Shown here in pieces: positions 33,649-54,002 of a stretch of DNA of 64,000 nt. The stretch comes from Nostoc sp. S4 (GTDB taxonomy: Bacteria > Cyanobacteriota > Cyanobacteriia > Cyanobacteriales > Nostocaceae). The stretch spans positions 1 through 64,000 of the forward strand of contig JAQYWR010000003.1 in NCBI GenBank assembly GCA_029379225.1. The letters run 5' to 3'. Made by a program: the position numbers and the translations under genes. Within the stretch, counting starts at the first letter, position 1; each line of letters begins with the position of its first letter. The notes below the pieces were generated by a model. That model was not told the DNA's origin, did not search any database, and worked only from the letters and a program-made list of their open reading frames with translations.

Positions 33649-34695
33649 TCAAATTTCGTCAAAACTTGTCATTTCACCCATCGCAACAAAAAGCTTTCGT
33701 TCTCCAAAAAAAGGATTACGCCCATGAGCAGTTAATAGGTTATCTAATATTAATAAATCTCCAGTTTGCCAAGGAAAGCTGATTTCTAGCTTTTGATATA
33801 CTCCACAAATTTCTTCCATTACAGAGTCTTCAATACGAGAACCATCACCGTAGTAGCAATTTCGGGGTAAATCTTCTTCCTGGAAAGATGATAACAGAGT
33901 CTCACGCGTTTCCATATCTAAGCATGAAGTATGCCAATGTTGAGCTTGGGTAAACCAAGTCAGTTCACCAGTTTGAGGATGCTTGACCACGGCAGGTCGT
34001 ACAGCACGGGTTCTCAATCTACCATTATCTTTCCATTCAAAATCGATACCAGCTTCTCTACAATTAGCCTCTACTTTTGCTTGATTTTGAGTTTGAAAAA
34101 CAGTTGACCAGTCTAGTCCAAGTTTAGAGTCGTAGTTGCGAAGATACATGACCTTCTTTTCAATAAATCTTTCCCGAATCTTGCGATCGATTAGTTCAAA
34201 AACTTTACGACTATCAACAATAGGAGTTTCTCCTCCTTGTTCTGCTGGTTGACCACAGCCAAAAAAGATTTTCCTAGGCCAACGATAGTTGAAAGAATTT
34301 TCATTATGCCACAACAGTTTTTTATCTGCTGGATAAAAAACTGGAGTATAAACGTTAGGACTGACAGCTTCACGAATATGTTCACCATTTTCATTAAACA
34401 AGTTTGGGCATAGTGTCAGGCAAACTTGCTCAAAAACTCCTGCTCTGTCTAAATTAAAACCCCGCAATAATATAGCACCCTGTTTTAGTAACTTTGTTTG
34501 TATAAATTCTTGGTTCTCCTCGATCCAATTTACTAAGTCGAGATTTTCTACCGCAGGCTTGAATACTACAGGAAGTGTTTCCCCATATTTAAAATAATCT
34601 ATTTTTATTAATTCTCCTTGTATCAATTTTACTGCTTTTCTTGTAATATTTTCTAAACCTTGAAGTTTAAATTGCTTATTTTCTATATTTTTCAT
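33649..34695 (-). CDS. TauD/SyrP-like Fe(II)/2-oxoglutarate oxygenase
   Basis: Non-haem iron, 2-oxoglutarate-dependent oxygenase of 348 residues. The iron-binding triad is visible as LLWHNENSF (His-X-Glu, about residues 128-136) and the distal His in LLTAHGRNPF, with an Arg nearby (GERK) for 2-oxoglutarate. His-X-Glu rather than His-X-Asp is known from AsnO/VioC-type amino acid beta-hydroxylases, and SyrP hydroxylates carrier-bound Asp. The gene lies between a free C domain gene and an NRPS gene whose first A domain reads as Asn, so beta-hydroxylation of Asn is the best guess (inference). It starts 20 bases after the C domain gene stops and ends 18 bases before the NRPS start. A hydroxylation target elsewhere in the chain cannot be excluded. 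Confidence 0.92.
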   Translation of the reverse strand: MKNIENKQFKLQGLENITRKAVKLIQGELIKIDYFKYGETLPVVFKPAVENLDLVNWIEENQEFIQTKLLKQGAILLRGFNLDRAGVFEQVCLTLCPNLFNENGEHIREAVSPNVYTPVFYPADKKLLWHNENSFNYRWPRKIFFGCGQPAEQGGETPIVDSRKVFELIDRKIRERFIEKKVMYLRNYDSKLGLDWSTVFQTQNQAKVEANCREAGIDFEWKDNGRLRTRAVRPAVVKHPQTGELTWFTQAQHWHTSCLDMETRETLLSSFQEEDLPRNCYYGDGSRIEDSVMEEICGVYQKLEISFPWQTGDLLILDNLLTAHGRNPFFGERKLFVAMGEMTSFDEI

Positions 34696-36350: not shown

Positions 36351-39300
36351 CTAACTAATTTTAACTTCAGAGAATTTTTCTAACTCTTCTAGGATCATTT
36401 CTTCAATAACTAAAGCCAATTCAGCTATATTCGGTTCATCGAAGAAGCGTTGATGAGACAGTTCTATATTGAAAGTTTTACGTATTCGAGAAATAACAAT
36501 AGTAGCAAGTAAAGAGTCTCCTCTCAAATCAAAAAAGTTATCGTAAATTCCTACTTGTTCAATGCTAAAGATTTCCTGCCAAATGTCAGTCAGAATGTGC
36601 TCAATCTCGGTACGTGGAGCCACATAAGCATTTACTAGGTTAGGGCGAGGGTGAGTTGGTTTATCTCGCCTAATCTTAGTAAATTCTTCTTCTAAGGTAT
36701 TGAGAGTATCTTGTAGGTTAATCAAATTTCGATTAATCAGGTTATTAAAATCGCTTTTCGATACAATTACCTGAGGTATTGTGCTAGAAAACAGAATACG
36801 TCTAAAAGCCTCCATGGCTTCTTCAAGGGTTAATGGTGTTTCTTCAAGTGTAAATTCTGACACCCTATCTAAGTTTGCTTGAGTCATCCATTCTGAAGTG
36901 TTCCATCTATTCCAATTTATGGATCTAATAAACCTGCCATTTTTAGAGGCACTGTAGTAAGCAAACGCATCAATGAAAGCACATTCAGCAGTATATTCTA
37001 CTAGCCCGATTCCACCTACAACTGAAGCTTGTGATGAAGTAAGTACAAAGAAATCCAACTCGGTATCTTTGAAGAGATTATGGAGTATTATTGTTCCTAT
37101 TACTTTCGGCGCAAGAAAAATTCTTCCTGTTTCTAGCGTTTTTTGGGCAAAGAATTCTTGTTGACTTTCTACAGCATTATGGATTACCCCATTAATCTGA
37201 CCAAATCGATTGTTTGCATGAGTGATTGCTGCTTCCATTTGTTCTCGATTGGTAACGTCAGCTTTAACTACTAAAACTTCCGCACCCAAAACCTCAAGTT
37301 CTTGCAATTTAAGAATCTTACGGCTTACGCTATCTTGCTCACCATAATCTGATAGCCATTGTGACCACTCTTCTCGCTCAGGAAAAGCTGAACGTCCTAT
37401 CAGTATGAGTTTTGCTTGTAGAGTCTTCGCTAGATATTCTGCATTAAAGAGACCAACTCCTCCTAATCCACCCGTTATTAAATAAACTCCCCTTTCCCTG
37501 AACTGGGGTTTTGCTTCGACTATTCCATCCAAGTAGACGGGTTCAAAAGTCTGCACCCAGCGATAATTTCCACGGTACGCCACAACACGGTCAGACGATT
37601 GAACCATGAATTCAGCCAGTAGCTGATCTATAAGTTTTTCTTGTTGCCAATTTTCTGTTTCAGGAATAACGATATCAATGCTACGACAGATGATATTCGG
37701 GTACTCTTGCTGAATGACCTTACACGGTCCTAATACGAAAGCCTTTCCTGGGTCTAGTACCTCTGAGCCTGTCACTTCCTGCAAATTGTTTGACACTATT
37801 CCAATTTCCACGGAACTTGTCATCTGTTGCTGCTCTGCAAGTGTTTGTGCTAGAAATACCAGACTGTAGAAACTCAAAGTTTCACACTTTTCAAGGGACT
37901 CAATTGTTAATTCTATGCCCCTGTTTAATGTCAGACTCCACAAATGTAAAATCCTGTTTGGAGTTAACTCCAGTGCACCAAGTTCTTTGATCAAGGCGTA
38001 GTAATCATCTCGTCGTTGAGGGTTGATGGTATATACGCGTTGAGAAGATGCTATTTCACTACTAAATTGCTCTCCTATTTTGACAATAATTGCATTCTGA
38101 CCCTCAAGGGTAAGTCGTTGCACGATTTTATTACCCAAACCGTACTCATCGATAAATACTAACCAACACCCTGGCTGAGTTGCTTGAAGCTTTGAATTAA
38201 ACGGCTGAGGTGGCATTAAGCGTTTCCAAGAGGGAATGTAAAACCAATCGGAAATGTTCAGCTTTTCGTGTAATGAAACTTGAGGTTTGTTTTCAGCATT
38301 TATTTGCTCAAAGGTTACAGTAAATGCTGAAGCTGCGGGTAATGCTGTTGACGCAGAAGCTTGAGCTACGAAAACATATTGTTCAAAAACATCAATTTCA
38401 GAAAAAGCCGCCACCTCAACAAACCCATGATTACGTAAAGCTTCCTGCCATTGTTCTTTTGATAAAAAGGGATTACCTGAATTTCGTTGTTTATCCTCTA
38501 ACGGATTCATCAACAGACCATCAATCATGTCGAAGTCTAATTGAGGTTGCGTTATCTCCTGGATTAATAACAGACCTTCAGGAGCCAATAAAGAGCGTAC
38601 ATACTCAAGAGTTTTTCCTATGTTCTGAGTCACATGCAGCACATTTACGGCTAGTACTACATCAAAGCTGTGACTTTCGTACCCTTGTTCAGATGGAGGT
38701 TGCTCGATGTTTAGTAAACGATATTCAACAAATGGATAGGCGCTAAATTTCTTTTCAGCTTCCGTTAAGAAAAAACCGCCTACATCAGTAAAGGTGTAAT
38801 TGGTTTGCTTGGATGGCAATATAGGTAGCAATTCTGCCGTTACAATACCAGTTCCACCCCCGATTTCTAAGATTCTTAGGTTCACCTCAGATGGCAATGA
38901 CTTTACTACCACCTCCAGGCTTGCTTGGATAATGGCATTAAAGTAGATATCAGCGGGCAAGTTTTGCCGAGAAATTTCTCCTTCCTTGGCTAACGTATCA
39001 GCATACAACTTCAATGGTTCTTTTTTACCAACAAGTATATCTGTCAGATTTTCACCAAAGTTCTGGACGAGTTCTATCTGTTGAGGTATATCAGCCCATC
39101 TAATTGTGAATTCTTTTACCAAACTATTAATAGAGTCTGCTGACAATGGCAGAAAGTTTGTAAAGAGTTCTCTAACTTGCTTTAGGTGGCCTCGCTCTAC
39201 AAGGACATCCAGCCAGCGACACAATAATTGTCGGTAGTGAGGAATAACTTGACATTGCTCAAACAACTCCTCAAGAGAATAGTTCTGTGATGGATTGTTG

Positions 39301-42176
39301 AATGCACCTAAATTCTTTAAAGCAAGATTCATGTAGGCGGTACATAAATGTTCCAAGCACTGTTTGTTCGCTAGATAAGTGTGATTGTCAAATTTAGAGA
39401 TTCCCTCACTCGCTTGTAACTGGCCAACTTCTACCAGAGATTTCCAAAGCTCCGGTGCTGATACACTTCGTTGGAGGTGTCCCTTAGTTGAAGGTGAAAG
39501 TTTTTCGGGTTCAATCCAGTAACGCTGCCGCTCAAAGGGATATGTTGGCAAGGGAAGACGATGACGGTGCTCATAGGTGTAAAATCTTGACCAATCTACC
39601 TGTACTCCATACAACCAGAGTTTACCTAATGTGTTTAATAAGAATGTTACGTCAGACTGTTTTTCCTGAGGATGCCGTAATGAGGATAGTTCTGGAGAAT
39701 CTAAATGCTTTTTAGTGAAGCTACACAAAGTGTGCCCTGGCCCCACCTCTAGGAGAATGTAATTTGGCTCTTGTGACAATGTAGAAATGCCTGCCGCAAA
39801 TTGCACTGTTTGCCGTAAATGTTTTGCCCAGTAATTTGGATCTGTGGCTTGTTCTGCTGTAATCCGGTTTCCTGTGACATTAGAAACAAAGGTAATTTTT
39901 GGAGGATGTAATTTGACTTTGCTTACTTCCTTCTGAAATGCCTCTAATATGGGTTCCATCATTGGGGAATGAAAAGCATGGGAAGTATAGAGACGGCGGC
40001 AGTCTATACCTTGTTCTTGGAGCTGATTTTGAAATACGTCTATGGCATCATGGGTTCCCGAAACCACACATAAAGCTGGTGCATTACAAGCAGCAAGGGA
40101 TAATTTTTCATCCAATAAAGCTTTAACTTCTGACTCTGGCAGTGGTACAGAGAGCATAGCACCAGATGGTAGTTGTTGCATCAGCCGTCCACGCGCCGCC
40201 ACTAGTGCCAAAGCATCTTCAAGTAACATGACACCAGCAAGGCAAGCTGCTACATATTCCCCGATGCTATGACCAATCATTGCATCTGGAGAAATTCCCC
40301 ATGACATCCACAACTGAGCCAGAGCATACTCTATCACAAACAATGCAGGCTGAGTAATGTCAGTTTGTTGCAGTTTTTGGGCTGTGGCTTTTGACTCAGA
40401 CTCGCCCGGATATATGAGCGATCGCAGATCCAATCCTATATAAGGTTGGAGCAATTGACAGCACAAATCCACTTGTTCCCGAAAAATTGGCTCAGTCTGG
40501 TAAAGTTCTTTACCCATGTCCACATACTGAGCGCCCTGTCCTGGAAACATGAATACGATGGGGCGATCGCCTGCTTCTAGTAAATTAGTGAAAACTCTTT
40601 GAGGATCTCGCACCTGCAAGGCGCTGGTTGCATCTTCAATATCTTGACACACTAATACGCGACGATGATTGAATTGCCTGCGTCCTACTTGCAACGTATG
40701 CGCTACATCTGCCAGAGTAATATCGCTGTGTTGCTTAAGGTATTGAACCAGATTTTCTGTGGCAGTTTCCAAAGCGGAGTCTGTTTTGGCAGAAAGTACC
40801 AATAACTGCCAAGGGCGAGAGGGACTAGAAGCTTTTAAGGCTGGCGCTTCTTCCAGAATTACATGAGCATTAGTCCCACCAATACCTAAGGAACTGACTC
40901 CAGCACGACGAGGAGTAAGTCCGGTTTTCCATTCCGTCAGCGTTGTATTAACGTAAAAAGGACTATTGGCAAAATCTATTTGGGGATTGGCTTCTTCAAA
41001 ATTTAAGCTCGGGGGTATTTGTTTATGTTTGAGAGCCAAAACAGTTTTGATTAAACTTGTAACCCCAGCTGCTGCATCTAGATGTCCAATGTTTGTTTTA
41101 ACTGAACCGATCGCACAGAAGCCTTTTTTATCCGTACTTTCACGAAACACGTTTGTTAAAGCAGAAATTTCAATGGGATCGCCTAAGACAGTTCCTGTAC
41201 CGTGAGCTTCTACATAGCTAATTGTTTCAGGTTCCAGCCCAGCCAAAGCAAGTGCTTCTGCGATGACATCTGCTTGTCCGTTAACACTAGGTGCTGTATA
41301 ACCGATTTTACCAGAACCATCGTTATTGATAGCACTACCTTTAATTACAGCATAGATATTATCACCATCGGCGATCGCCTCAGATAATCGCTTCAAAACT
41401 ACAATTCCTACACCATTACCAATAATCGTTCCCTTGGCTTTAGCATCAAAGGCGCGACAGTGGCCGTCAGGTGATAAAATACCCCCTTCTTCATACAAAT
41501 ACCCTGTTTTTTGGGGAATGTGAATAGATACTCCACCTGCTAAAGCTATATCGCATTGGTAATTTAATAGACTTTGACAAGCTAAAGAAATAGCTACTAA
41601 GGAAGTAGAACAAGCGGTTTGTACCGTTAGACTTGGGCCTGTGAGATTTAATTTATAGGAAACGCGAGTCGCTAGGAAATCTTTATCGTTACCAATTCCC
41701 TTTTGGAAAATGCTACCCAATCCAGCGCGATCGCTATTTAAATCCAATGATAAATAATTATTTGAACTAGAACCAGCATAAACTCCAATCCGACTTTCGC
41801 AACGTTGAGAGTCATAGCCAGCATTTTCTAATGCTTCCCATGCATATTCTAAAAATAAACGATGCTGCGGGTCTGTAATTTCTGCTTCTTTAGGATTCAA
41901 GGCAAAGAATGAAGCATCAAATAAATCTATATTTTCTAATACAGCAAGGCTTTTGACATAATTAGGATCACTAAGTAATTCTAGAGCAATTCCAGAGGAG
42001 ATTAATTCTTGATCCGTGAAAGTAGATATTGATTCTACTCCAAAACGTAAATTTTCCCAAAACTTTTCAATATTATTAGCACCGGGAAAACATCCCGACA
42101 TACCAATAATTGCAATTGCTTGTATTGAATCGTATACTTCTGTACTGTTCATTGCTCTTAATCTTACTAAATTCAT
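36351..42176 (-). CDS. Type I PKS module, KS-AT-cMT-KR-ACP
   Basis: First PKS module of the line, with 1941 residues. KS: Cys in QTACSTS near 189, AHGTGT, NIGHLD. AT: GHSIGEYVAA near 635, malonyl-type HAFH. C-methyltransferase: SAM motif LEIGGGTG near 1105, very like the second cMT at 21239-27151. KR: TGGLGGVG near 1567 and Ser (TSSQAS) are kept, but the Tyr motif reads VEYTAEC, so the usual catalytic Asn is Cys; the inner HAAG motif is also changed to HNAV. Reduction is therefore uncertain. ACP: Ser in DLRGDSLL near 1885, where the usual first Gly is Arg. The tail is acidic and feeds the free C domain. Two starts are possible: ATG 42176, or ATG 42152, which has a purine-rich AAGAG just upstream and an N-terminus (MNST) like the sister PKS. 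A 174-base gap precedes it. Confidence 0.95.
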   Translation of the reverse strand: MNLVRLRAMNSTEVYDSIQAIAIIGMSGCFPGANNIEKFWENLRFGVESISTFTDQELISSGIALELLSDPNYVKSLAVLENIDLFDASFFALNPKEAEITDPQHRLFLEYAWEALENAGYDSQRCESRIGVYAGSSSNNYLSLDLNSDRAGLGSIFQKGIGNDKDFLATRVSYKLNLTGPSLTVQTACSTSLVAISLACQSLLNYQCDIALAGGVSIHIPQKTGYLYEEGGILSPDGHCRAFDAKAKGTIIGNGVGIVVLKRLSEAIADGDNIYAVIKGSAINNDGSGKIGYTAPSVNGQADVIAEALALAGLEPETISYVEAHGTGTVLGDPIEISALTNVFRESTDKKGFCAIGSVKTNIGHLDAAAGVTSLIKTVLALKHKQIPPSLNFEEANPQIDFANSPFYVNTTLTEWKTGLTPRRAGVSSLGIGGTNAHVILEEAPALKASSPSRPWQLLVLSAKTDSALETATENLVQYLKQHSDITLADVAHTLQVGRRQFNHRRVLVCQDIEDATSALQVRDPQRVFTNLLEAGDRPIVFMFPGQGAQYVDMGKELYQTEPIFREQVDLCCQLLQPYIGLDLRSLIYPGESESKATAQKLQQTDITQPALFVIEYALAQLWMSWGISPDAMIGHSIGEYVAACLAGVMLLEDALALVAARGRLMQQLPSGAMLSVPLPESEVKALLDEKLSLAACNAPALCVVSGTHDAIDVFQNQLQEQGIDCRRLYTSHAFHSPMMEPILEAFQKEVSKVKLHPPKITFVSNVTGNRITAEQATDPNYWAKHLRQTVQFAAGISTLSQEPNYILLEVGPGHTLCSFTKKHLDSPELSSLRHPQEKQSDVTFLLNTLGKLWLYGVQVDWSRFYTYEHRHRLPLPTYPFERQRYWIEPEKLSPSTKGHLQRSVSAPELWKSLVEVGQLQASEGISKFDNHTYLANKQCLEHLCTAYMNLALKNLGAFNNPSQNYSLEELFEQCQVIPHYRQLLCRWLDVLVERGHLKQVRELFTNFLPLSADSINSLVKEFTIRWADIPQQIELVQNFGENLTDILVGKKEPLKLYADTLAKEGEISRQNLPADIYFNAIIQASLEVVVKSLPSEVNLRILEIGGGTGIVTAELLPILPSKQTNYTFTDVGGFFLTEAEKKFSAYPFVEYRLLNIEQPPSEQGYESHSFDVVLAVNVLHVTQNIGKTLEYVRSLLAPEGLLLIQEITQPQLDFDMIDGLLMNPLEDKQRNSGNPFLSKEQWQEALRNHGFVEVAAFSEIDVFEQYVFVAQASASTALPAASAFTVTFEQINAENKPQVSLHEKLNISDWFYIPSWKRLMPPQPFNSKLQATQPGCWLVFIDEYGLGNKIVQRLTLEGQNAIIVKIGEQFSSEIASSQRVYTINPQRRDDYYALIKELGALELTPNRILHLWSLTLNRGIELTIESLEKCETLSFYSLVFLAQTLAEQQQMTSSVEIGIVSNNLQEVTGSEVLDPGKAFVLGPCKVIQQEYPNIICRSIDIVIPETENWQQEKLIDQLLAEFMVQSSDRVVAYRGNYRWVQTFEPVYLDGIVEAKPQFRERGVYLITGGLGGVGLFNAEYLAKTLQAKLILIGRSAFPEREEWSQWLSDYGEQDSVSRKILKLQELEVLGAEVLVVKADVTNREQMEAAITHANNRFGQINGVIHNAVESQQEFFAQKTLETGRIFLAPKVIGTIILHNLFKDTELDFFVLTSSQASVVGGIGLVEYTAECAFIDAFAYYSASKNGRFIRSINWNRWNTSEWMTQANLDRVSEFTLEETPLTLEEAMEAFRRILFSSTIPQVIVSKSDFNNLINRNLINLQDTLNTLEEEFTKIRRDKPTHPRPNLVNAYVAPRTEIEHILTDIWQEIFSIEQVGIYDNFFDLRGDSLLATIVISRIRKTFNIELSHQRFFDEPNIAELALVIEEMILEELEKFSEVKIS

Positions 42177-42351: not shown

Positions 42352-43194
42352 TTAATAACCAACAAACGCTTTACCAAAAAACCATAATAAAAACTTTTCA
42401 ACTTTTGTCAATTCTGGATGGTATAAATCCAATAACAAAACCACTCTTTCTTTCTGACTTTTATTCCATGCTTCATGCTCAAAACTATGATCGAAAAATA
42501 ACGTTTGCCCTTCAGTCCAACTCCGCGTTTCATTTCCGACCCTAATGGCACAATTTTCTGGAATTATTAATCCTAATTGACAGGTAAGATCAATATTTGA
42601 ACTATCGTGGTGTGGAGGTAAGGCAACTCCTGGTTTTAAAACAAGAAATACAACCTGCCCAAAAGGAATCACAAAAGATTCCAACTTAGAAACAATCTTT
42701 ACTGTTCTGGGAAATAGAGATCGGCCTGCTTTAGTAAATTTACCTTCTTTCCATAACACAAATTCTCCCCAGTCATCTTCCTTGAGATCCGGGTGTACGT
42801 CACTTGATTCACATCTTGAAACTAAATTATGTTTCTTCAAGTAATTACTTGACCACTCATCTTCTATATCTTTCGCACCTTTTACAAGCGTGTCAGATAT
42901 AAATTTTAAAGCGTGGTAATCACAACATTCATACCAAGGTTTAGAAGTGATCCCAAGATATAAAAGTCGTTTTGGTTTTTGATGCATGTTAAAATTATCA
43001 TGATCTATCAGTCCCAAATAAAATTTTAAGGACTTTTCAAATCTAGAAACATTACTTATAGGAAATAATAAATTTAACAGTGCTAATAGCGAAAAAAGTA
43101 TTTTTAGTTTTATTTTATCCGACTCATCCAAAATCTGCTGATGTGGCAGCGATTCCTTGTATTCTTGCAAATTTGAATTTCCTAATGTAGTCAT
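42352..43194 (-). CDS. Aspartyl/asparaginyl beta-hydroxylase family oxygenase
   Basis: The protein has 280 residues. The C-terminal half shows the AspH-family double-stranded beta-helix core: FLVLKPGVALPPHHDSSN carries the first iron His pair, followed by LGLIIP, the WTEGQTLFFDHSFEHEAWN stretch with the second iron His and its flanking Glu-Ala-Trp-Asn, and RVVLLLDLYHPEL. Such proteins use Fe(II) and 2-oxoglutarate to hydroxylate amino acid side chains, and free members occur in NRPS clusters. A hydrophobic stretch near residues 30-45 (ILFSLLALLNLLF) could touch a membrane. It lies between the split first NRPS module and the first PKS, so the first residue or the acyl chain is a possible target (inference). 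It is the second, unrelated oxygenase of the operon. Gaps on both sides (112 and 157 bases) are larger than for most neighbours. Confidence 0.9.
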   Translation of the reverse strand: MTTLGNSNLQEYKESLPHQQILDESDKIKLKILFSLLALLNLLFPISNVSRFEKSLKFYLGLIDHDNFNMHQKPKRLLYLGITSKPWYECCDYHALKFISDTLVKGAKDIEDEWSSNYLKKHNLVSRCESSDVHPDLKEDDWGEFVLWKEGKFTKAGRSLFPRTVKIVSKLESFVIPFGQVVFLVLKPGVALPPHHDSSNIDLTCQLGLIIPENCAIRVGNETRSWTEGQTLFFDHSFEHEAWNKSQKERVVLLLDLYHPELTKVEKFLLWFFGKAFVGY

Positions 43195-43306: not shown

Positions 43307-43948
43307 TTACTGGCGAATTTGCTTTTTTCGGTTAACAGCTACTTTTTGTTTTTCTGCTCTGTCACGAATTTTTTGAAAAGAAACTTTTTGGCTTTGGTCC
43401 TGAATTAAATAATTAGCTAAATAACTGATGGTTGGGTATTGGAACAGGTCAGTAATTAAGACATTTTTAGGAAAAAGTTGTTGCAGTTTGCTTTGAACTT
43501 GAAGCGCAAGTAGTGAATGACCACCTAAATCAAAGAAATTATCATTCATTCCTACCTTTTCTAGCTGAAGAACTTCTTGCCAAATAGTTGCAATCATTTT
43601 CTCAACCTCGTTACGAGGTGCCACATAATCAACGGCTAAATCTGAACTAAAATCCTTTGGTGTTGGCAAAGCATGACGGTTTACCTTTCCATTGGGCAAA
43701 AGCGGCAGAACTTCTAGCATCACTATCATTGATGGGACCATGTAACCTGGGAGCTTTTCTTTTAAAAATCCGCATAATTCTATGCTCGTGGCTGCTTGCT
43801 TGTTAATAGGAACAATATAGGCTACTAAGCGCTTTTGGGTTTGCTTACTTTCCTCAGCGGCACTTAACTTTTGTCCATCAAGTTGAAGTTGAAGAAGTGC
43901 GAGTTTTTTGGGAGAAAGATTCGCTATACGCTTATACAAATCAATCAT
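43307..43948 (-). CDS. Detached C-terminal A subdomain (A9-A10) plus PCP
   Basis: A small NRPS protein of 213 residues. It opens with a leader like those on C-domain proteins (RIANLSPKKLALLQLQL), then joins the end of an adenylation domain: RLVAYIV, A9 motif LPGYMVPSMIVML and A10 NGKVNRHALP with the adenylation Lys. A PCP follows (NEVEKMIATIWQEVL, Ser in DLGGHSLLALQV about residue 145), then a basic tail (RAEKQKVAVNRKKQ) suited to meet a KS. The front of this A domain (A1-A8) is at the end of the upstream protein 44106-49925, which lacks A9-A10 and PCP. A GGAG site 9 bases before the ATG argues for real separate translation and not a sequencing break. The two proteins presumably assemble to activate and tether the first amino acid. 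Confidence 0.94.
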   Translation of the reverse strand: MIDLYKRIANLSPKKLALLQLQLDGQKLSAAEESKQTQKRLVAYIVPINKQAATSIELCGFLKEKLPGYMVPSMIVMLEVLPLLPNGKVNRHALPTPKDFSSDLAVDYVAPRNEVEKMIATIWQEVLQLEKVGMNDNFFDLGGHSLLALQVQSKLQQLFPKNVLITDLFQYPTISYLANYLIQDQSQKVSFQKIRDRAEKQKVAVNRKKQIRQ

Positions 43949-44105
43949 GACAAATGCTCCGGATATATCAGCTTATTTTGGCTGAAACTTTACATACAAG
44001 AGATGATTTTGTATTCCAGTAGTCTGAAAGAACGAAAATGCGTTTATTGTACAGATTGTTATTCATGTTAATAGCATTGGAGATGCGTTTGCCCTGAGAG
44101 TTTAT

Positions 44106-47100
44106 TTACTTAATAGCCTTGATGACAACCATTGAGTCAGCCCACCAATAATTGCAATCTTCTGGAGGAAACAAAGAATCAACAACACTGATTGTAAGAG
44201 AGCTAAAATATTTCAGAACAAGTCTTTGATGCCTACGACTAAAGGAATCAATTTCGTTAGTGTAGTAAGTAAAAATGCCTCCTTTATTTAACTGTTCTGC
44301 AGCAATTGGTAAAAAATGCTCAGCAAAAGTAATGTTGTTAATAACATGTTCTATGAACTCCTTTTCGTCAAGGGGATAAGTATCAAAAAAGATACCATCA
44401 TATGTTTGTAATTGAGAGCCAACATCTTGCCATTTTCCATGAATTAATCTAATATCCCGTTCTAGATATTGATTTTTCCATTGGTTAAAAGTTTTTACTA
44501 CATCATCATTCAATTCAATTATTGTATGTGATTTAACACCCCTTTCTTGAATATAAGTTGCAGAAATCCCCATCCCGAAACCGACTTCCAAAACATCTCC
44601 ATGTGTTTCAGTGATAATATTCGCCATTGCCTTCATTAATGGGCGCTCCCAATCTTGCATGACCTGCTGGTCTTCAATAATCAGTTGGGTGCTATCGTAT
44701 TCCGCTCGACTCTTACTCCAGTCGTTTTGGATTTGAAGTCTTTTAGAACCAGTAACGAATTTTTTTGAGATTTTATCTAAATTGAGTAAGTCATCACTAA
44801 ATTCGTCGAGAGTTCTTTGAATAATCCAGTTTCTTTGTAATTCCTGGGGAGGACTGATAAATGTATTGTTGTGCAGTTGCAGAGAGATATTAAATTCGGG
44901 AAATCTTTTGATTATAGTTTTTCCTTGTTCGTTATAGGATGGCATTTCTTTGGCAAGCATCTTTTCCACTTTATCCTCTGAAAGATTTTCTAGATTTTCT
45001 AAGAGTTGATTAGCAGTTTCTGCACCTAGAGATAATATTCGCCTGTACAAAGTTTCTACTTCTTGGTGTCCAATGGAACTATGCAATTGCTCTTGATTGA
45101 ATTTTGGCGGCTTTTCAATCTGCTCTTTGACTAAAACCATAGCATCCTGAACAGTAGGATGTTGTTTTAGAACAGTTTCTATTTCCCCTAACTCAATACG
45201 ATAGCCACGGAGTTTCACTTGGTGGTCGATGCGCCTCAGGAACTCGATATTCCCATCTAATCGGTAGCGAGCTAAATCGCCTGTCTGATAAAGACGCGCT
45301 CCTGATTCTGTACTATATGGATTCGGTATAAACCTTTCTGCTGTTAATTCCGGTCGGTTGCGGTAGCCTCTTGCTAAACCCACACCTCCAATATAAAGTT
45401 CTCCTGGAACACCTATCGGAACTAATTCCAGAGATGAATCTAGTATATAGATTTGAATGTTATTAATTGGTTTTCCAATTGTTAACTCACATCCCACAGT
45501 TTTAAGAGATGTTACTGTTGATAAATCGCACATTGTTGCAGAAATTGTCGTTTCTGTAGGGCCGTAGCAATTAACGAGTCGTACTTGTTCCCCTACCTGC
45601 TGCTGCCATATTTTTAAACGCGAAGGATCAGCTTTTTCGCCACCAATGAGAACTAATCGCACTGTTACAGGTAGTACTAAATTTACCGTAGACAATTCAT
45701 CTGTTAGCTGATGCCAAAAGCTAGTAGGTAAGTCAAGTATTGTAAGTTCCAAATTATTACACTGATACAGAAATTCCGATATGGAACTCAACATTTGATC
45801 GGTTCGCAGTATCAGGGTTGCACCTTGCAATAAACACGAAAATATTTCTTCGGCACCTACATCAAAACTAATTGAAGTAAACTGCAAAAAGCGATCGCTC
45901 GACTTCAGCGCAAACTCTATACATGTAGTATTAATATAAGTACTCAAGGAGCGATGCTGGATCATTACCCCTTTGGGTGTTCCCGTTGAACCAGATGTAT
46001 AAATTAAATAGGCAAGGTTTTCTGGTTGTGTCTGATTAATCGGGTTTTCTTGGCTGTTATCAGCAATTGTTTGCCAGTCTATATCTAAGCAAATAACTCT
46101 ATATTCATCTTCAGACAGTGTGTCCAATTGTACTGATATAGTTAATAAAACTGGCACTTGGGCATCCTTTAACATCAAAGCCAGACGTTCTTTTGGATAA
46201 GTCGGATCTAGAGGCACATAAGCACCTCCGGCTTTGAGGATCGCCAAGAGTCCGATGACCATTTCTAAAGAGCGCTGTATACAAATACCAACTCGCACTT
46301 CTGGCCCAACTCCCAGCGATCGCAGATGATGTGCTACTTGATTCGCACGCTGGTTCAATTCTCTGTAAGTTAAATGCTGGTTTTGAAATACCACCGCGAT
46401 CGCATTTGGTGTCCGTTCTACCTGTGCCTCAAACAGTTGATGAATGCATTGTTCGGAGGAATTTTGAATTGGAAATTGATTTCTACTAAGTTGTAGTAAC
46501 TCCTGACGATCTTCCGCGCTCAATAGTGGTAAGTCGGATAGCCGAGCTTGAGGATGAGCAGCAATGCCTGAGAGTAAATTCTGAAAATGCCTTAGCATTC
46601 GGCTGATGGTAGCAGCATCAAATAGGTCAGTATTGTAATTGAAGGATACCGCCACTTCTTGCTCTGTAATTTCAATAAACAGGCTCAAATCAAACTGCGC
46701 TGTTTGTGTTTCTATTTTTAACAAGCTCAATACCAAACCAGGCATTTCTGGTAAGTGTGAGTAATCTTGAACATTGAACATGACTTGAAACAGCGGTGTT
46801 CGACTTGTATCCCGTTCTGGTTGCAATGCTTCTACCAGTTGGTCAAAAGGCAAATCCTGATGTGTGTAAGCTCCTAAAGCTACCTTTCTCACTCGTGTCA
46901 GCAACTCCTCAAAAGTCGGGTTGCCGCTCATATCTGTACGTAATACTAAGGTATTGACAAAAAAGCCAATTAACCGTTTTATTTCTTCACGATTCCGGTT
47001 AGCGACAGGTGTTCCTACAGCAATATCATCTTGTCCTGTGTAACGGTAGAGGAAAGTCTCAAATGCTGCCAATAGCAACATGAATACAGTTACACCCTCT

Positions 47101-49925
47101 TGACGAGCGATCGCCTTTAGTTGCTTGATTACTGCTTCAGGCAACTCAATAGATTGTTGAGCGCCGTGTGAGGTTTGCACCGCCGGCCGTGGTCGGTCAG
47201 TGGGTAGTTGTAATGCGGCTGGTATACCCTCAAGTTGTTGCTTCCAGTAAGAGAGTTGAGTTTGCAGGATTTCTCCTTGTAGCCATTGTCGCTGCCAGTG
47301 TGCAAAGTCTTTGTATTGGATAGAGACTTCCGGTAGTGGCGAAGAACTTTTGGTTAAGAATGCTTTGTACTGTAATGCTATCTCTTGTAAAAATACCTCA
47401 GCAGACCAGCCATCAGAGATTATGTGGTGCATCTCAAGCAAAAGAATATGCTCTTGCTGTGCTAGGCGCAAAAGTTTAGCACGTAACAATGGCCCCTGTA
47501 TTAGATCAAAAGGTTGTTGGCTCTCTTGAGTCAAGAATTGCCGAACTGCTGCATCACCCTGTGATTCAATATTTTTTTGATAATCTATTACTGATAAAGA
47601 TAATTTTAAGGAAGAAGCAATAACTTGAACTGGTTGCCCGTTGACTGTAGTAAAAGTGGTTCTTAAAGTTTCATGTCGTCGGATAATTTCATTAAAACTT
47701 TGTTCTAACAAGGGAATGTCAAGCTGACCTTTGAGATTAACAGCTAAGGAAATATTATAAGCTGGGTTGCCTGGTTCCAAACGGTCAAGGAACCATAATC
47801 GTTGCTGGGCAAAAGATAAGGGATAAACTTCAGCTTGCTGGATTTGGCTAAGAGACTCTGAGAGGATGAAAGCCTCTGCTGTCATTTGAGCAAGTATCTT
47901 GGTAGAGAGCGATCGCATACTCATTCCTTCAAAGAAGTCTGCTACAGATACCTCTACTTCTAAATCAATCTCAATCCGATTTTTTAACTCAAATACTTTT
48001 AAAGAGTCTAGTCCAAGAGTGCTTAATGGTTCTTGAGGATTGATATCATCCGGTGCGATGGAAAGTACTCCCGCCAAAAGTTCAATCAAATATGATTCTA
48101 ATACTGGTTGACACTCCTTTGGAGAAAGCGCCAATAGTTCAGAACGCTGTAATTGAGTTTGTTTTCTGGCAATATCGCTAATCTGAAGAATGTTACTTTC
48201 AACTACATTCAGTTCGCCATTTTGAAACTGAGTACGAGTTGCACGACGTTGAATCTTACCACTAGAAGTTTTGGGTATAGTACCTGGTTTAATTAAAACC
48301 ACTGCATAAATCTGTACTTCATGTTCTTCAGTGATTGCTTGCCGAATTGCACGAGCTACTTCTGCTAAATTTGGTTTGGCACGAAACTCTAATTCTTGTA
48401 CAAGTACTAGCCTTTCTTCGTTATTAACTTCTACTGTAAATGCTGCATTAGCACCGGAACGTAAGGATGAATGACTGCGTTCTGCACTTAATTCTATATC
48501 TTGCGGATAAATATTTCTTCCACGAATAATAATTAAATCTTTTGCTCTACCTGTAATGAAAAGTTCACGATTATGCAAAAAACCTAAGTCACCAGTCCGT
48601 AAAAATGGCCCTTCTTCTGTGTCTTTTAGATAAGCGTGGAATGTTTCCTTTGTTTCTTGTGTGCGATTCCAATAACCTTGACCAACACAGGGACCAGATA
48701 CCCAAATTTCGCCAACTTCATCTGATGAACAGCGATTTAATTCAGAATTGACAATCACAATCTCTTGTTGAGGAATTGCTTGACCGCAGCTGACAAAACT
48801 TTGGATATCTTGATGGGTAGTTGCTTCGACTATCTGATTGTGTGAAAGGGCAAATTTATCTACAGTTTTGACTTGAGCTAAAGCTGTTTTGCTTCCACCA
48901 GAAACTATCAAAGTTGCTTCTGCCATACCATAACAAGGGTAGAACACCTCTGGACGAAAGCCACACTCTGCAAAGGTGGTTGCAAATTGCTCAAGAGTCT
49001 CTTGTCGGACTGGTTCAGCACCATTAAACGCAACACTCCAACTACTTAAATCGAGAGTTTCTTTTTGTTGAGTAGTAATCCTTTGAATACACTGTTGATA
49101 AGCAAAGTTAGGGCCGCCGCTCGTGGTGCCTTTGTAGCGGGAAATCGCTTGTAACCAGCGGTAAGGTCGTTGTAAAAAAGCTGCTGGTGACATTAAGATG
49201 CAACCAAACCCTCCATATAAAGGTTGCAAAATCCCACCAATCAATCCCATATCATGATAAACAGGTAGCCAGGAGACAAACTTGCTGCTGGGCGAATGCT
49301 CCATCATTTGGTAAGTTACTGCGGCGTTGTGCAGCAAGTTACCATGACTGAGCATGACTCCCTTTGGTGTGCCTGTAGAACCGGATGTATATTGCAGAAA
49401 GGCTAAGGTATCCCCATTGATTGCAGGTTGTTTCCAAGAATCTTCTAGACCCTGTGCTATGTTGTCAGTTGTCAGCCAGCGAAAATTTCCCTGTTTTATT
49501 TGTGGTATGAGTATTGATTGTAATGTGGGGAGCATTGCTGTTGTAGTGAGAGCAACACTTGCCTGTGCATCTATACTTATAGCTTGTATTCTGGGCGTAT
49601 TACGTTGATTGCGAGGCGGATAAGCTGGAACCGCCACAACCCCAGCATATAAACAACCAAAAAACGCTATTAAGTAATCAAGTCCAGGAGGATAGAGCAA
49701 TATGGCACGTTCCCCACTCAAACCCAGAGCTTGTAATTGAGCGCCTACAGCCCGACTGCGCCGATCCAATTCATCGTAAGTCAGCGTTAATTCTATTGTC
49801 TCTCCATCTTCGAGGAAGGTGAAGGCTTGTGCGTGTGGTGTTTTTAAGCTGCGATAACGCAGAATATCAACTATTGTCTCATATTGATGAGATATTTCTT
49901 GAAAGTTATTGATAATTAAAGTCAT
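44106..49925 (-). CDS. FAAL-ACP-C-A(split)-methyltransferase loading protein
   Basis: Starts the assembly line; 1939 residues. FAAL: about 15-590, with AMP-binding TSGSTGTPKGVMLSHGN and YRSLK/YPPGLDY wording of fatty acyl-AMP ligases, loading a fatty acid onto the next domain. ACP: Ser in LGLDSLKVFEL near 638. C: LSFAQQRLWFLDRL near 700, HHIISDGWS near 832. A: YTSGSTGTPKG near 1310 to A8 (RGYRIELGEIE) near 1575, code by eye D V E D L G C I S with the Lys on the next protein; Glu and Asp in the pocket suggest a basic substrate. After A8 there is no A9-A10; instead residues about 1650-1939 form a guanidinoacetate-methyltransferase-like domain (VLEVGFGMG near 1772, FFDTYPL near 1843). The conserved Gly before RIDHQVK is Arg. 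The start has only a weak Shine-Dalgarno site. Confidence 0.95.
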   Translation of the reverse strand: MTLIINNFQEISHQYETIVDILRYRSLKTPHAQAFTFLEDGETIELTLTYDELDRRSRAVGAQLQALGLSGERAILLYPPGLDYLIAFFGCLYAGVVAVPAYPPRNQRNTPRIQAISIDAQASVALTTTAMLPTLQSILIPQIKQGNFRWLTTDNIAQGLEDSWKQPAINGDTLAFLQYTSGSTGTPKGVMLSHGNLLHNAAVTYQMMEHSPSSKFVSWLPVYHDMGLIGGILQPLYGGFGCILMSPAAFLQRPYRWLQAISRYKGTTSGGPNFAYQQCIQRITTQQKETLDLSSWSVAFNGAEPVRQETLEQFATTFAECGFRPEVFYPCYGMAEATLIVSGGSKTALAQVKTVDKFALSHNQIVEATTHQDIQSFVSCGQAIPQQEIVIVNSELNRCSSDEVGEIWVSGPCVGQGYWNRTQETKETFHAYLKDTEEGPFLRTGDLGFLHNRELFITGRAKDLIIIRGRNIYPQDIELSAERSHSSLRSGANAAFTVEVNNEERLVLVQELEFRAKPNLAEVARAIRQAITEEHEVQIYAVVLIKPGTIPKTSSGKIQRRATRTQFQNGELNVVESNILQISDIARKQTQLQRSELLALSPKECQPVLESYLIELLAGVLSIAPDDINPQEPLSTLGLDSLKVFELKNRIEIDLEVEVSVADFFEGMSMRSLSTKILAQMTAEAFILSESLSQIQQAEVYPLSFAQQRLWFLDRLEPGNPAYNISLAVNLKGQLDIPLLEQSFNEIIRRHETLRTTFTTVNGQPVQVIASSLKLSLSVIDYQKNIESQGDAAVRQFLTQESQQPFDLIQGPLLRAKLLRLAQQEHILLLEMHHIISDGWSAEVFLQEIALQYKAFLTKSSSPLPEVSIQYKDFAHWQRQWLQGEILQTQLSYWKQQLEGIPAALQLPTDRPRPAVQTSHGAQQSIELPEAVIKQLKAIARQEGVTVFMLLLAAFETFLYRYTGQDDIAVGTPVANRNREEIKRLIGFFVNTLVLRTDMSGNPTFEELLTRVRKVALGAYTHQDLPFDQLVEALQPERDTSRTPLFQVMFNVQDYSHLPEMPGLVLSLLKIETQTAQFDLSLFIEITEQEVAVSFNYNTDLFDAATISRMLRHFQNLLSGIAAHPQARLSDLPLLSAEDRQELLQLSRNQFPIQNSSEQCIHQLFEAQVERTPNAIAVVFQNQHLTYRELNQRANQVAHHLRSLGVGPEVRVGICIQRSLEMVIGLLAILKAGGAYVPLDPTYPKERLALMLKDAQVPVLLTISVQLDTLSEDEYRVICLDIDWQTIADNSQENPINQTQPENLAYLIYTSGSTGTPKGVMIQHRSLSTYINTTCIEFALKSSDRFLQFTSISFDVGAEEIFSCLLQGATLILRTDQMLSSISEFLYQCNNLELTILDLPTSFWHQLTDELSTVNLVLPVTVRLVLIGGEKADPSRLKIWQQQVGEQVRLVNCYGPTETTISATMCDLSTVTSLKTVGCELTIGKPINNIQIYILDSSLELVPIGVPGELYIGGVGLARGYRNRPELTAERFIPNPYSTESGARLYQTGDLARYRLDGNIEFLRRIDHQVKLRGYRIELGEIETVLKQHPTVQDAMVLVKEQIEKPPKFNQEQLHSSIGHQEVETLYRRILSLGAETANQLLENLENLSEDKVEKMLAKEMPSYNEQGKTIIKRFPEFNISLQLHNNTFISPPQELQRNWIIQRTLDEFSDDLLNLDKISKKFVTGSKRLQIQNDWSKSRAEYDSTQLIIEDQQVMQDWERPLMKAMANIITETHGDVLEVGFGMGISATYIQERGVKSHTIIELNDDVVKTFNQWKNQYLERDIRLIHGKWQDVGSQLQTYDGIFFDTYPLDEKEFIEHVINNITFAEHFLPIAAEQLNKGGIFTYYTNEIDSFSRRHQRLVLKYFSSLTISVVDSLFPPEDCNYWWADSMVVIKAIK

Positions 49926-51237: not shown

Positions 51238-51308
51238 CTCAATTTTAAGCTTGTTTAGAAAACTTCTCAACAAAGAGGGTTTCGGTTACTGGAGTGTGGG
51301 GAATTATT

Positions 51309-54002
51309 ATGAGGATTCAAGAGTTGTCGTCTAATATTTGGCTGTGGTTATTAATGATTTTTCTGCCGTTGTTGATGGCACAATCTGTACAAGCACAGGT
51401 TAAGCAGAATCAGTCAACAGTAATTAATAGTCAGGAACATTTCAAAACGACTGCCGATTTTTCTGCTAACAGACAAATTAGGCGAACGAGCGAGATTGAA
51501 CACCCAGCTACCAATGCTAGTGGATTACTTTCGCAATCGTCAACCTCACAAGCAACGCCTGCATCAGAAATTGTGCTAGTAACAGGAGTAAAGGCAAATC
51601 CCACTGATAAAGGTGTGGAGGTGATTTTACAGACAACCAAAGGCGAACAATTACAAGTTACAAATCGCAGTACTGGTAATAATTTTATTGCAGATATTCC
51701 TAATGCCCAACTACGGCTACCGTCAGGCGAAGCATTCACATTTCGTTCCCAAAAACCAACATCGGGTATTACTGAGATAGTAGTAACAAATTTTGATGCC
51801 AGCACGGTTCGGGTGACGGTGACAGGTGAGGCAAATGTGCCAATTGTCGAGTTGTTTGACAGTGCGAATGAAGGGTTGATTTTTAGCGTAGCCAGTGCAT
51901 CTGCTTCTAGCCAGCCACCACAATCACAAACGCAACCAACACCGCAAACACAGCAGCCAGCACTCCCTGTACAGCCAACTCAACCATCAACTAGTGGTGA
52001 TGAACCTATCGAGTTAGTGGTCACAGGAGAACAAGATGGATATAGCGTACCAGATGCGAGCACTGCGACCAAAACCGATACTCCTCTACGCGACATCCCG
52101 CAATCAATTCAAGTTGTACCCCAACAGGTACTCAAAGACCAACAAGTCACCCGCTTGAACGATGCTTTAAGAAATGTTCCTGGTGTGGTTACTGTCTTTG
52201 GCTCGCCTGGCAATAGCGAAGAAAGTTCATTTACCATTCGGGGCTTCGAGTTTGCGAATCCGCTCAGGAATGGTCTGGCAGATCCTCTGGGTGGACGCTC
52301 GCTAGAACTCTCCAATATAGAGCGAGTGGAAGTCCTCAAGGGTCCGGCTTCAGCTTTGTTTGGTAATGGAAGTCCCGGTGGCACAGTCAACTTGATTACC
52401 AAGCAGCCCCTCGCCAATCCTTACTATGCAGTTGAAGCAACGGTTGGAAGTTACAGCTATTATCGAGGTGCTGTAGATCTGTCCGGGCCTTTAAACGATT
52501 CTAAAACAGGGCTGTATCGACTGAATCTGTCCTACAAAGATGCAGGCAGTTTTATCGATTTTGCTCATGATAAAAATCTACTCTTTGCGCCAGTTTTGAG
52601 TTTTGCAATTGGCGAGCGCACAAAGCTAACTATGGAAGGAGAGTATATCAGTGCAGACACCAATAGATTGTGGCTACCAGCCGTTGGCACCGTACTACCT
52701 AACCCAAATGGTAAAATACCACGCAACCTGAACATTAGTGGACCTGACAAGAATGACAATTTTGTTCATGAAGACATTGGTAGAATTGGATATAGCTTAG
52801 AACACAAATTCAGTGACAACTGGTCATTAAAAAACGCTTTTCGGGCAATATTTTATAATTTTGAACTCAGCGGGTTTTTCCCTACTAGTCTCGACTCTGA
52901 TGATAACCGAACACTAAATCGAATATTTGCTCAAGGACAGTTTAATGACGAGGCTTACAATATGGCAACGGACATCATTGGCAAATTCTCAACTGGTTCG
53001 ATCCAGCATCAGTTGTTATTTGGCTTTGATCTGAGTAGATTTTCTTATGAATCTTTATTTACTGTTAATAATGCAGCACCCATCGACCTGTTTAACCCAG
53101 TGTATGACCAATCCATTGGTGCAGATTTGGGTCCTCAAAATCTTTCCTCTCTAACAGATGCACTGGGTATTTATGTTCAAGATCAGATCGCGCTGAGTGA
53201 GAATCTGAAATTGCTGTTAGGTGTCCGGTTTGATGCCTTTAAACAGACGGATGGAGATTTGCTCGCAAACACCGAAAGCAGCCAGTCAGGAGATGCGTTT
53301 AGCCCTCGTTTCGGTATTGTCTACCAACCCATAGAGCCAATTTCACTCTATGCCAGCTACAGTCGCTCGTTTACCCCAGCGATTGGAACTAGCTTTGATG
53401 GCAGCATCTTTGAACCAGAACGTGCTACGCAGTATGAAGTTGGGGTCAAGGCAGATTTGAATCAGAGAATTTCTACAACACTTGCTTTCTATAATCTGAC
53501 TCGCTCCAATGTCTTGACTGAAGACCCAAATAATCCAGATTTTTCGATTCAAACAGGTGAACAGCGCAGCCGGGGTATCGAATTTAATATTGGCGGTGAA
53601 ATCTTACCCGGTTTGAATGTGATTGCAGGTTATGCTTACACGGATGCCAAAATCACCGAAGACAATACTTACACACCAGGTAATCGCCTCAACAATGTAC
53701 CAGAACATAGTTTTAATTTGTGGACAAAGTATGAAATTCAATCTGGTAGTCTCAAAGGACTCGGCTTTGGTTTGGGGTTATACTATGTAGGCGATCGCCA
53801 GGGAGATTTAGAAAATGACTTTGAATTGCCGAGCTATTTGCGTACTGATGCTGCCATTTTCTATAAACAAGGACAACTCCGCGCACAGGTGAATTTCAGA
53901 AATCTGTTTGATGTGGATTATTTTGAGTCTGCTAGGAGCCTTTCGCGTATTTATCCTGGTGAGCCGTTTACGGTGCAGGGCACGATTTCCTGGGAGTTGT
54001 GA
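51309..54002 (+). CDS. TonB-dependent siderophore receptor with AMIN domain
   Basis: Outer-membrane receptor for ferric siderophores, powered by TonB. The GTG at 51294 opens the frame, but the ATG at 51309 directly precedes a clean signal peptide (IWLWLLMIFLPLLMAQSVQAQ) and has GGGGA upstream, giving 897 residues. After the signal comes an AMIN domain (about 85-195; LVTGVKANPTDKGVEVIL), typical of cyanobacterial receptors, then a Pro/Gln/Thr-rich linker, a TonB-box-like segment (IELVVTGEQDG), the plug (DIPQSIQVVPQQVLKDQQ, RVEVLKGPASALFGNGSPGG) and a beta-barrel to the C-terminus (FTVQGTISWEL). It resembles hydroxamate/ferrichrome-type receptors. It looks intact although the regulator before it and the PepSY gene after it are broken. 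Nearness to an NRPS operon raises, but does not prove, uptake of that product. Confidence 0.95.
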   Translation: MRIQELSSNIWLWLLMIFLPLLMAQSVQAQVKQNQSTVINSQEHFKTTADFSANRQIRRTSEIEHPATNASGLLSQSSTSQATPASEIVLVTGVKANPTDKGVEVILQTTKGEQLQVTNRSTGNNFIADIPNAQLRLPSGEAFTFRSQKPTSGITEIVVTNFDASTVRVTVTGEANVPIVELFDSANEGLIFSVASASASSQPPQSQTQPTPQTQQPALPVQPTQPSTSGDEPIELVVTGEQDGYSVPDASTATKTDTPLRDIPQSIQVVPQQVLKDQQVTRLNDALRNVPGVVTVFGSPGNSEESSFTIRGFEFANPLRNGLADPLGGRSLELSNIERVEVLKGPASALFGNGSPGGTVNLITKQPLANPYYAVEATVGSYSYYRGAVDLSGPLNDSKTGLYRLNLSYKDAGSFIDFAHDKNLLFAPVLSFAIGERTKLTMEGEYISADTNRLWLPAVGTVLPNPNGKIPRNLNISGPDKNDNFVHEDIGRIGYSLEHKFSDNWSLKNAFRAIFYNFELSGFFPTSLDSDDNRTLNRIFAQGQFNDEAYNMATDIIGKFSTGSIQHQLLFGFDLSRFSYESLFTVNNAAPIDLFNPVYDQSIGADLGPQNLSSLTDALGIYVQDQIALSENLKLLLGVRFDAFKQTDGDLLANTESSQSGDAFSPRFGIVYQPIEPISLYASYSRSFTPAIGTSFDGSIFEPERATQYEVGVKADLNQRISTTLAFYNLTRSNVLTEDPNNPDFSIQTGEQRSRGIEFNIGGEILPGLNVIAGYAYTDAKITEDNTYTPGNRLNNVPEHSFNLWTKYEIQSGSLKGLGFGLGLYYVGDRQGDLENDFELPSYLRTDAAIFYKQGQLRAQVNFRNLFDVDYFESARSLSRIYPGEPFTVQGTISWEL

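Follow-up and report, generated by a model that had tools for sequence, protein, structure and literature searches.

A single adenylation (A) domain of an NRPS is divided between two neighbouring genes in Nostoc sp. S4, and the division lies inside the small A subdomain. The first gene ends with a methyltransferase which, judging by its profile matches, is a homologue of GAMT (guanidinoacetate methyltransferase). The recurrent two-subunit A domain is real, and from sequence we infer the role of its methyltransferase. On balance, the two genes probably form one working NRPS module made as two subunits, which would load arginine (the most likely substrate) and N-methylate its side chain. Unless another locus is named, positions refer to the window, i.e. 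the whole 64,000-base stretch of contig JAQYWR010000003.1 that was analysed.

The gene pair in the window

The pair consists of two open reading frames on the minus strand, gene 1 (44106-49925; protein P0001, 1939 aa) and gene 2 (43307-43948; P0002, 213 aa). Gene 1 encodes a first domain that we take to be a fatty acyl-AMP ligase (FAAL), followed by an ACP, a condensation (C) domain, A-domain motifs A1-A8 and the methyltransferase, after which the frame stops. The motif stretches of the A domain run from residue 1185 to approximately 1593 of P0001, and a SAM-binding stretch is found at 1777. Gene 2 encodes a helical leader, motifs A9-A10 with the catalytic lysine (K88 of P0002), and a PCP; Pfam (1e-3) reported no domain beyond this PCP and hence no terminal reductase. 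A first-pass annotation of this DNA had described A1-A8 and a terminal methyltransferase in the first protein, and a leader, A9-A10 with the catalytic Lys and the PCP in the second, and had read them as one A domain spread over two polypeptides. Its account of gene 1 was borne out by the open reading frames, Pfam, the motif stretches and the subdomain model, and that of gene 2 by K88, the subdomain positions and the Pfam PP-binding match.

The reading of one divided domain was right as well, the two subdomain parts being complementary. With a small-subdomain model built from three sequences, one of which is gene 2's own, gene 1 covers positions 1-39 of 93 and gene 2 positions 35-93. The annotation had placed the break just after the methyltransferase at the A8-A9 junction; this holds, but the cut is within the small subdomain, before the LVAYIVP strand. 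AMP-binding_C (Pfam) was found in P0002 just below the cut-off (23.6 vs 24.5 bits), with the PCP downstream, and was not reported for P0001 at E 1e-3. The window pair does not have both halves on one polypeptide, as a classical interrupted A domain would. When peptide strings were compared, GK was present in all seven gene 2 counterparts.

The gap between the genes is 157 bases in the window, the longest among the seven loci described below. The GGAG start signal that the annotation had assigned to gene 2 is present. Counted from its ATG gene 2 has 213 codons, whereas the open frame has 221, which puts a stop about 8 codons ahead of that ATG. For gene 2, AlphaFold (mean pLDDT 70.1) predicts leader helices at residues 2-9 and 13-23, and in Foldseek the whole model matched A-PCP structures (best E 1.1e-10). 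The gene 1 model is of low confidence (mean pLDDT 57.7).

Table 1. Features of the split A domain and its surroundings in the window
Feature	Position	Strand	Basis
FAAL domain (presumed), start of gene 1	48201..49841	-	Pfam AMP-binding (two stretches in protein), DIP2-like AMP domain to residue 575; A-core model match 45-487 of stop-to-stop frame
Acyl carrier protein	47904..48092	-	Pfam PP-binding, residues 612-674
Condensation domain	46494..47834	-	Pfam Condensation, residues 698-1144
A-domain core, motifs A1-A8, code DVEDLGCISK (last K assumed)	45186..46433	-	Pfam AMP-binding 1165-1521; code by alignment
Small A subdomain, first half (model positions 1-39 of 93)	45117..45233	-	Subdomain model
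Predicted helical segment between half subdomain and methyltransferase; possible donor docking element	44943..45065	-	Low-confidence structure model; weak likeness to two PKS C-terminal tails
GAMT-type methyltransferase, C-terminal end of gene 1	44109..44912	-	Six-row profile match to GAMT structures 1xcj/3orh; Glu, Asp kept at E45, D134 sites
Intergenic gap; GGAG at 43957-43960, 8 bases before ATG	43949..44105	-	Sequence; spacing counted by eye
Gene 2 leader, two predicted helices	43850..43948	-	Likeness to three downstream NRPS N-termini, 27.6 bits; structure model
Small A subdomain, second half (A9-A10), catalytic Lys88 at 43685-43687	43667..43846	-	Model positions 35-93; gene 2 structure model matches A-PCP structures
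PCP of same module (GGHS)	43406..43594	-	Pfam PP-binding 119-181
Adjoining aspartyl/asparaginyl beta-hydroxylase (context, outside split domain)	42352..43194	-	Pfam Asp_Arg_Hydrox, E 6e-42

Several other features of the window were recorded. A TonB-dependent receptor (51294-54002), the Asp/Asn beta-hydroxylase of Table 1 and a TauD-type dioxygenase (33649-34695) lie in or beside the cluster, as does an A domain with the code DLTKIGEVGK, presumably Asn-like. Such a gene set (receptor, beta-hydroxylase, dioxygenase, Asn-like code) is found in beta-hydroxyaspartate siderophore clusters. The A domain at 17860-21246 has the odd code VDWVISLGDK (by alignment), and YGSSE replaces YGPTE. An SNF2-type helicase is fused to a nucleoside phosphorylase-like domain (PNP_UDP_1) at 57916-60711. 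Two plasmids, one from Nostoc (82.4% over 31% of the query) and one from Gloeocapsopsis, were matched by the window's NRPS DNA.

Recurrence of the split and descent of its parts

A pattern scan of GTDB gave 18 stretches, four of which came from relatives. The methyltransferase family is rare. In genome searches with overlapping samples, where a strong match is one above 300 bits and the counts include the own or centre genome, strong matches were found in 2 of 59 relatives, 2 of 53 genomes of the genus and 3 of 388 of the order. Among 386 genomes of the phylum only the own genome had one, and G380 gave weaker GAMT-like matches. Searches around other genomes returned 1/396 (phylum of G447), 2/199 (phylum of G445), 1/57 (phylum of G444) and 2/274 (class of G446). 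Two further searches, of 2 and 38 genomes, had one strong match each and no new member.

Nine loci were found in total. Seven are flanked on either side by NRPS parts; the other two, L015 and L085, are stand-alone, with no A-core match within the stretch read. Near the stand-alone methyltransferase of L085 (7697-13360) are a class III aminotransferase and a radical SAM protein, together with a protein that has no Pfam match but by eye is amidinotransferase-like; the neighbourhood is possibly a guanidino-compound pathway.

The seven split loci are the window, L010/L017 of G033 (same genus), L013 (titled Thermodesulfobacteriota MAG), L014 (titled Acidobacteriota MAG), L016 (Aeromicrobium, Actinomycetota), L086 and L087. 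The last two were placed by search centre only, in the group of L014 and in that of G446, a gammaproteobacterial MAG. This makes five phylum-level groups, three from MAG or isolate titles, with two loci placed by search group; for L013 and L014 the phylum is taken from the title, and a contig of a MAG may be misbinned. The A core and the methyltransferase are fused in five of the seven loci. In L016 and L087 there are three genes (A core, methyltransferase, second half with PCP), the first two overlapping by 4 bases. In none of the seven is the methyltransferase joined to the second half. Gaps to gene 2 are 25 bases in L017, 14 in L013, 26 in L014, -1 in L016, 18 in L086 and 8 in L087.

The subdomain model finds complementary halves in the window, L013 (1-37 + 37-93), L014 (1-38 + 41-93) and L087 (1-34 + 36-93). 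In L017 the halves overlap by model (1-58 + 31-93), in L086 only the second half was detected (47-93), and in L016 neither was; the split in these three loci was read by eye. The presence of the same break in G033 and five more genomes argues against a local sequencing error, and the split looks like a conserved design. The annotation had named homologues that always have one continuous gene as evidence that would count against its reading; the search gave the opposite, a split in every NRPS-linked locus. The split A domain of L014 (2384-10816) has, in addition, radical SAM (PF04055) and B12-binding (PF02310) domains inserted between A2 and A3, so that two inserts and a gene break fall within one A domain.

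All 18 scorable A cores without a GAMT-type methyltransferase were unbroken, with the whole subdomain in the same frame. These controls came from the window and 13 chosen loci, 14 sources in all, and no probability is attached to the count because the control loci were fetched for holding the methyltransferase and are related through it. Two of the 18, both from the G033 cluster, have an insert which by eye resembles an ordinary methyltransferase (the one that was checked has PF08242), and one is a 525-aa stand-alone ligase (L087). The A-core model gave 29 matches in total, two of them from the split domain of L014; left out of the 29 were the FAAL, an A fragment at the contig end of L087 and the first A domain of L016. 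The latter was dropped as not scorable because its ordinary methyltransferase insert (PF08242) hid the subdomain from the model; its PCP follows in the same frame.

The nine methyltransferases, NRPS-linked and stand-alone, form a clade against nine GAMT-like proteins from the window's order with support 100/100 (10 of 13 distinct GAMT-like matches were used as controls). L037 was omitted from this second tree owing to its long branch; in the tree including it, L037 falls within the clade, 10 rows at 99/99. The seven NRPS-linked methyltransferases alone as a clade were not rejected (p 0.085). A single clade of all seven split A cores was rejected (AU p 0.003 for 20 rows and 0.002 for 18), in a weak tree with 3 of 17 inner branches starred and long rows flagged. 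That tree contained 13 other A domains, without L003, L006, L008, the first of L014, the 660 frame of L016 and the ligase. Taken together, the supported methyltransferase clade and the rejected A-core clade indicate that the break appears to go with the methyltransferase rather than with one A-core lineage. Inheritance of A core and methyltransferase as a single unit was rejected by the AU test on the A-core clade.

The gene 2 leader is similar to the N-terminus of other NRPS subunits in the cluster. A model made from three of the four downstream NRPS subunits (the fourth, 27184-33630, has no leader of this kind) scored it at 27.6 bits, and at 21.9 in a whole-window scan in which the next unrelated match had -0.3. 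None of 2000 shuffles reached the real leader score in the window, L013, L014, L017 and L086, and 13 did in L087. In L016 the leader is different, its score being reached by 770 of 2000 shuffles. This likeness, the three-gene versions and the GAMT family of the methyltransferase, which is not the usual nMT, had escaped the first-pass annotation. As a donor docking element, the modelled tail segment of gene 1 is not convincing. The donor model was made from two PKS C-terminal tails (a third, 36351-42176, was omitted as unlike the other two), and the segment's 0.6 bits in the whole-window scan are at noise level, below unrelated matches of 1.8 and 1.2. Shuffles scoring as high, of 2000, numbered 7 in the window, 0 in L017, 2 in L013, 31 in L086, 116 in L014, 1230 in L016 and 1673 in L087. 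Two NRPS proteins (L013:7772-10909 and L018:7095-13880) appear, by eye, to start partway through a condensation domain whose first half is missing.

The methyltransferase and the specificity codes

The window methyltransferase is not an insert of the ordinary NRPS nMT type (PF08242). Pfam at 1e-3 gave no methyltransferase match in P0001, and PF08242 was found in an L017 and an L016 protein. A six-row profile searched against the PDB matched four distinct GAMT sequences (best E 1.9e-30) and, weakly, one non-GAMT methyltransferase (0.0078). An NCBIfam search with the methyltransferase was of little use, and a plasmid protein search gave three weak matches. The domain is homologous to GAMT (PDB 1xcj, 3orh) over approximately 150 residues. 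GAMT itself is a free-standing enzyme with a small free substrate, whereas the window domain is part of an NRPS protein, and in L016 and L087 it is a gene between the two halves.

In GAMT, Glu45 is a substrate residue. D134 takes up the substrate proton, according to the accessible part of PMC12471008. Both residues are common to GAMT and the window domain (site numbers were counted on the 1xcj row of the profile alignment). Glu and Asp are found at sites 45 and 134 in the window, L013, L016, both stand-alone relatives and 10/10 GAMT-like controls. L014 and L086 have Gln and Asp, and the His-coded L017 and L087 have Gln and His.

The A-domain codes, read by alignment with the last K assumed, are DVEDLGCISK (window), DAWDTGCIDK (L013), DPENIGHIDK (L014), DSWDVGLIGK (L016), DVENIGAITK (L086), DSALIAEVWK (L017) and DSALMAEVWK (L087). 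Compared with the Arg consensus in the accessible part of PMC12283262, they match at 8 of ten positions in the window, 7 in L013 and L014, 6 in L016, 9 in L086, 4 in L017 and 3 in L087, two of the ten positions being near-invariant across A domains. Thirteen other A domains match this consensus at 3-7 positions; as the best controls reach 7, only in the window and L086 does the Arg reading exceed them. The same part of PMC12283262 gives DSALIAEVWK as a His code, which fits L017 at 10/10 and L087 at 9/10 positions. The exact His code is also present in a non-split A domain of L086 without a GAMT-type methyltransferase.

Across all seven loci, changes at code position 278 go with changes at site 45. 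The matched changes amount to three independent pairs at most (best tree) and to one on well-supported branches, and as they are so few, shared descent could explain the match between code and active site. The Arg-like code of the window and the His codes of two relatives, matched by active-site changes, suggest side-chain N-methylation by the GAMT-type domain.

Proposed working of the pair and comparison with known systems

In the proposed module, subunit 1 would carry the GAMT-type methyltransferase behind the A core and the first half of the small subdomain, and subunit 2 the second half with the catalytic lysine, plus the PCP. The subunits would be held together by the leader helices of subunit 2 and by completion of the subdomain beta sheet. 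The rebuilt A domain would load arginine, most likely, onto the PCP, and the methyltransferase would then N-methylate the side chain (guanidine) of the loaded residue.

The first-pass annotation knew of no described example of such a split, and in this it was wrong. The corallorazine synthetase pair Crz1/Crz2 has a split A domain that was reconstituted in vitro in 2024, where Crz1.2 adenylates Gly only when mixed with Crz2, and 146 related clusters are reported (PMC11342130, available in part). The layout of the window is the same: a methyltransferase right after A8 ends protein 1, and A9-A10 with a carrier open the next gene. Per the same excerpts Crz is, unlike the window with its Arg-like code, Gly-specific, has a terminal reductase domain and a methyltransferase described as a conventional nMT, and is one reconstituted case in which the split is not tied to a methyltransferase family. 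TioS, KtzH and McyA share with the window a methylase between A8 and A9 (PMC11355689, in part), whereas the halves in the window are on two genes.

The same two-subunit A domain could instead methylate the backbone alpha nitrogen, as ordinary A8-A9 inserts and Crz do; this is unlikely, although it carries real weight. According to the available parts of the sources, interrupted A domains most commonly identified methylate the backbone N (PMC8949500) and the Crz product step is N-methyl-Gly (PMC11342130), and the GAMT Glu is absent in L014 and L086. The methyltransferase, however, is of a different family. Its insertion point is also earlier in the subdomain, at approximately 37-41, whereas two ordinary L017 inserts leave 1-52 + 59-93 and 1-60 + 56-93, after the LVAYVV strand. 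E45 and D134 are moreover kept with the Arg-like code, and Q/H goes with the His codes. That the module has decayed, with the break and partial domain as relics and gene 2 only a carrier protein loaded by another A domain, is very improbable: the window gap is long and gene 2 has no A core, but part order and the GK of the second half are the same across seven loci, the genes are at most 26 bases apart or overlap in 6/7, and the Crz split pair works (PMC11342130, excerpts). Division of one gene by a sequencing or assembly error is scarcely credible even for one draft assembly of 119 contigs, given the recurrence of the break and a gene 2 with its own leader, SD and upstream stop.

As Crz1/Crz2 has already been reconstituted in the work excerpted above, the split A domain is of a known kind. 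New here are the other methyltransferase family, the splitting that follows it across phyla, and the Arg-like and His codes matched by active-site changes. In the available portions of the open-licence literature searched, there was no GAMT-type insert, no side-chain N-methylation by an A-domain insert and no second split A domain. Beyond the two-subunit module itself, we tentatively entertain a distinct cross-phylum class of A domains. In such a class a GAMT-derived side-chain N-methyltransferase (Arg guanidine, His imidazole) would sit at a cut that is never closed, and the second half would always be on its own carrier-bearing subunit, joined by an NRPS-type leader. The combination would spread as a cassette among unrelated A cores.

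If so, NRPS modules would have a natural site for splitting and swapping, namely a small catalytic subdomain that is divided within its beta sheet, reassembled from two polypeptides and maintained in this form in distant bacterial groups. The linked methyltransferase would place a methyl on Arg or His side chains during assembly. For interrupted A domains the accessible part of a review lists main-chain N-methylation and side-chain O- or S-methylation, with side-chain N not among them (PMC11355689), and this type of reaction would be outside the two categories of that review.
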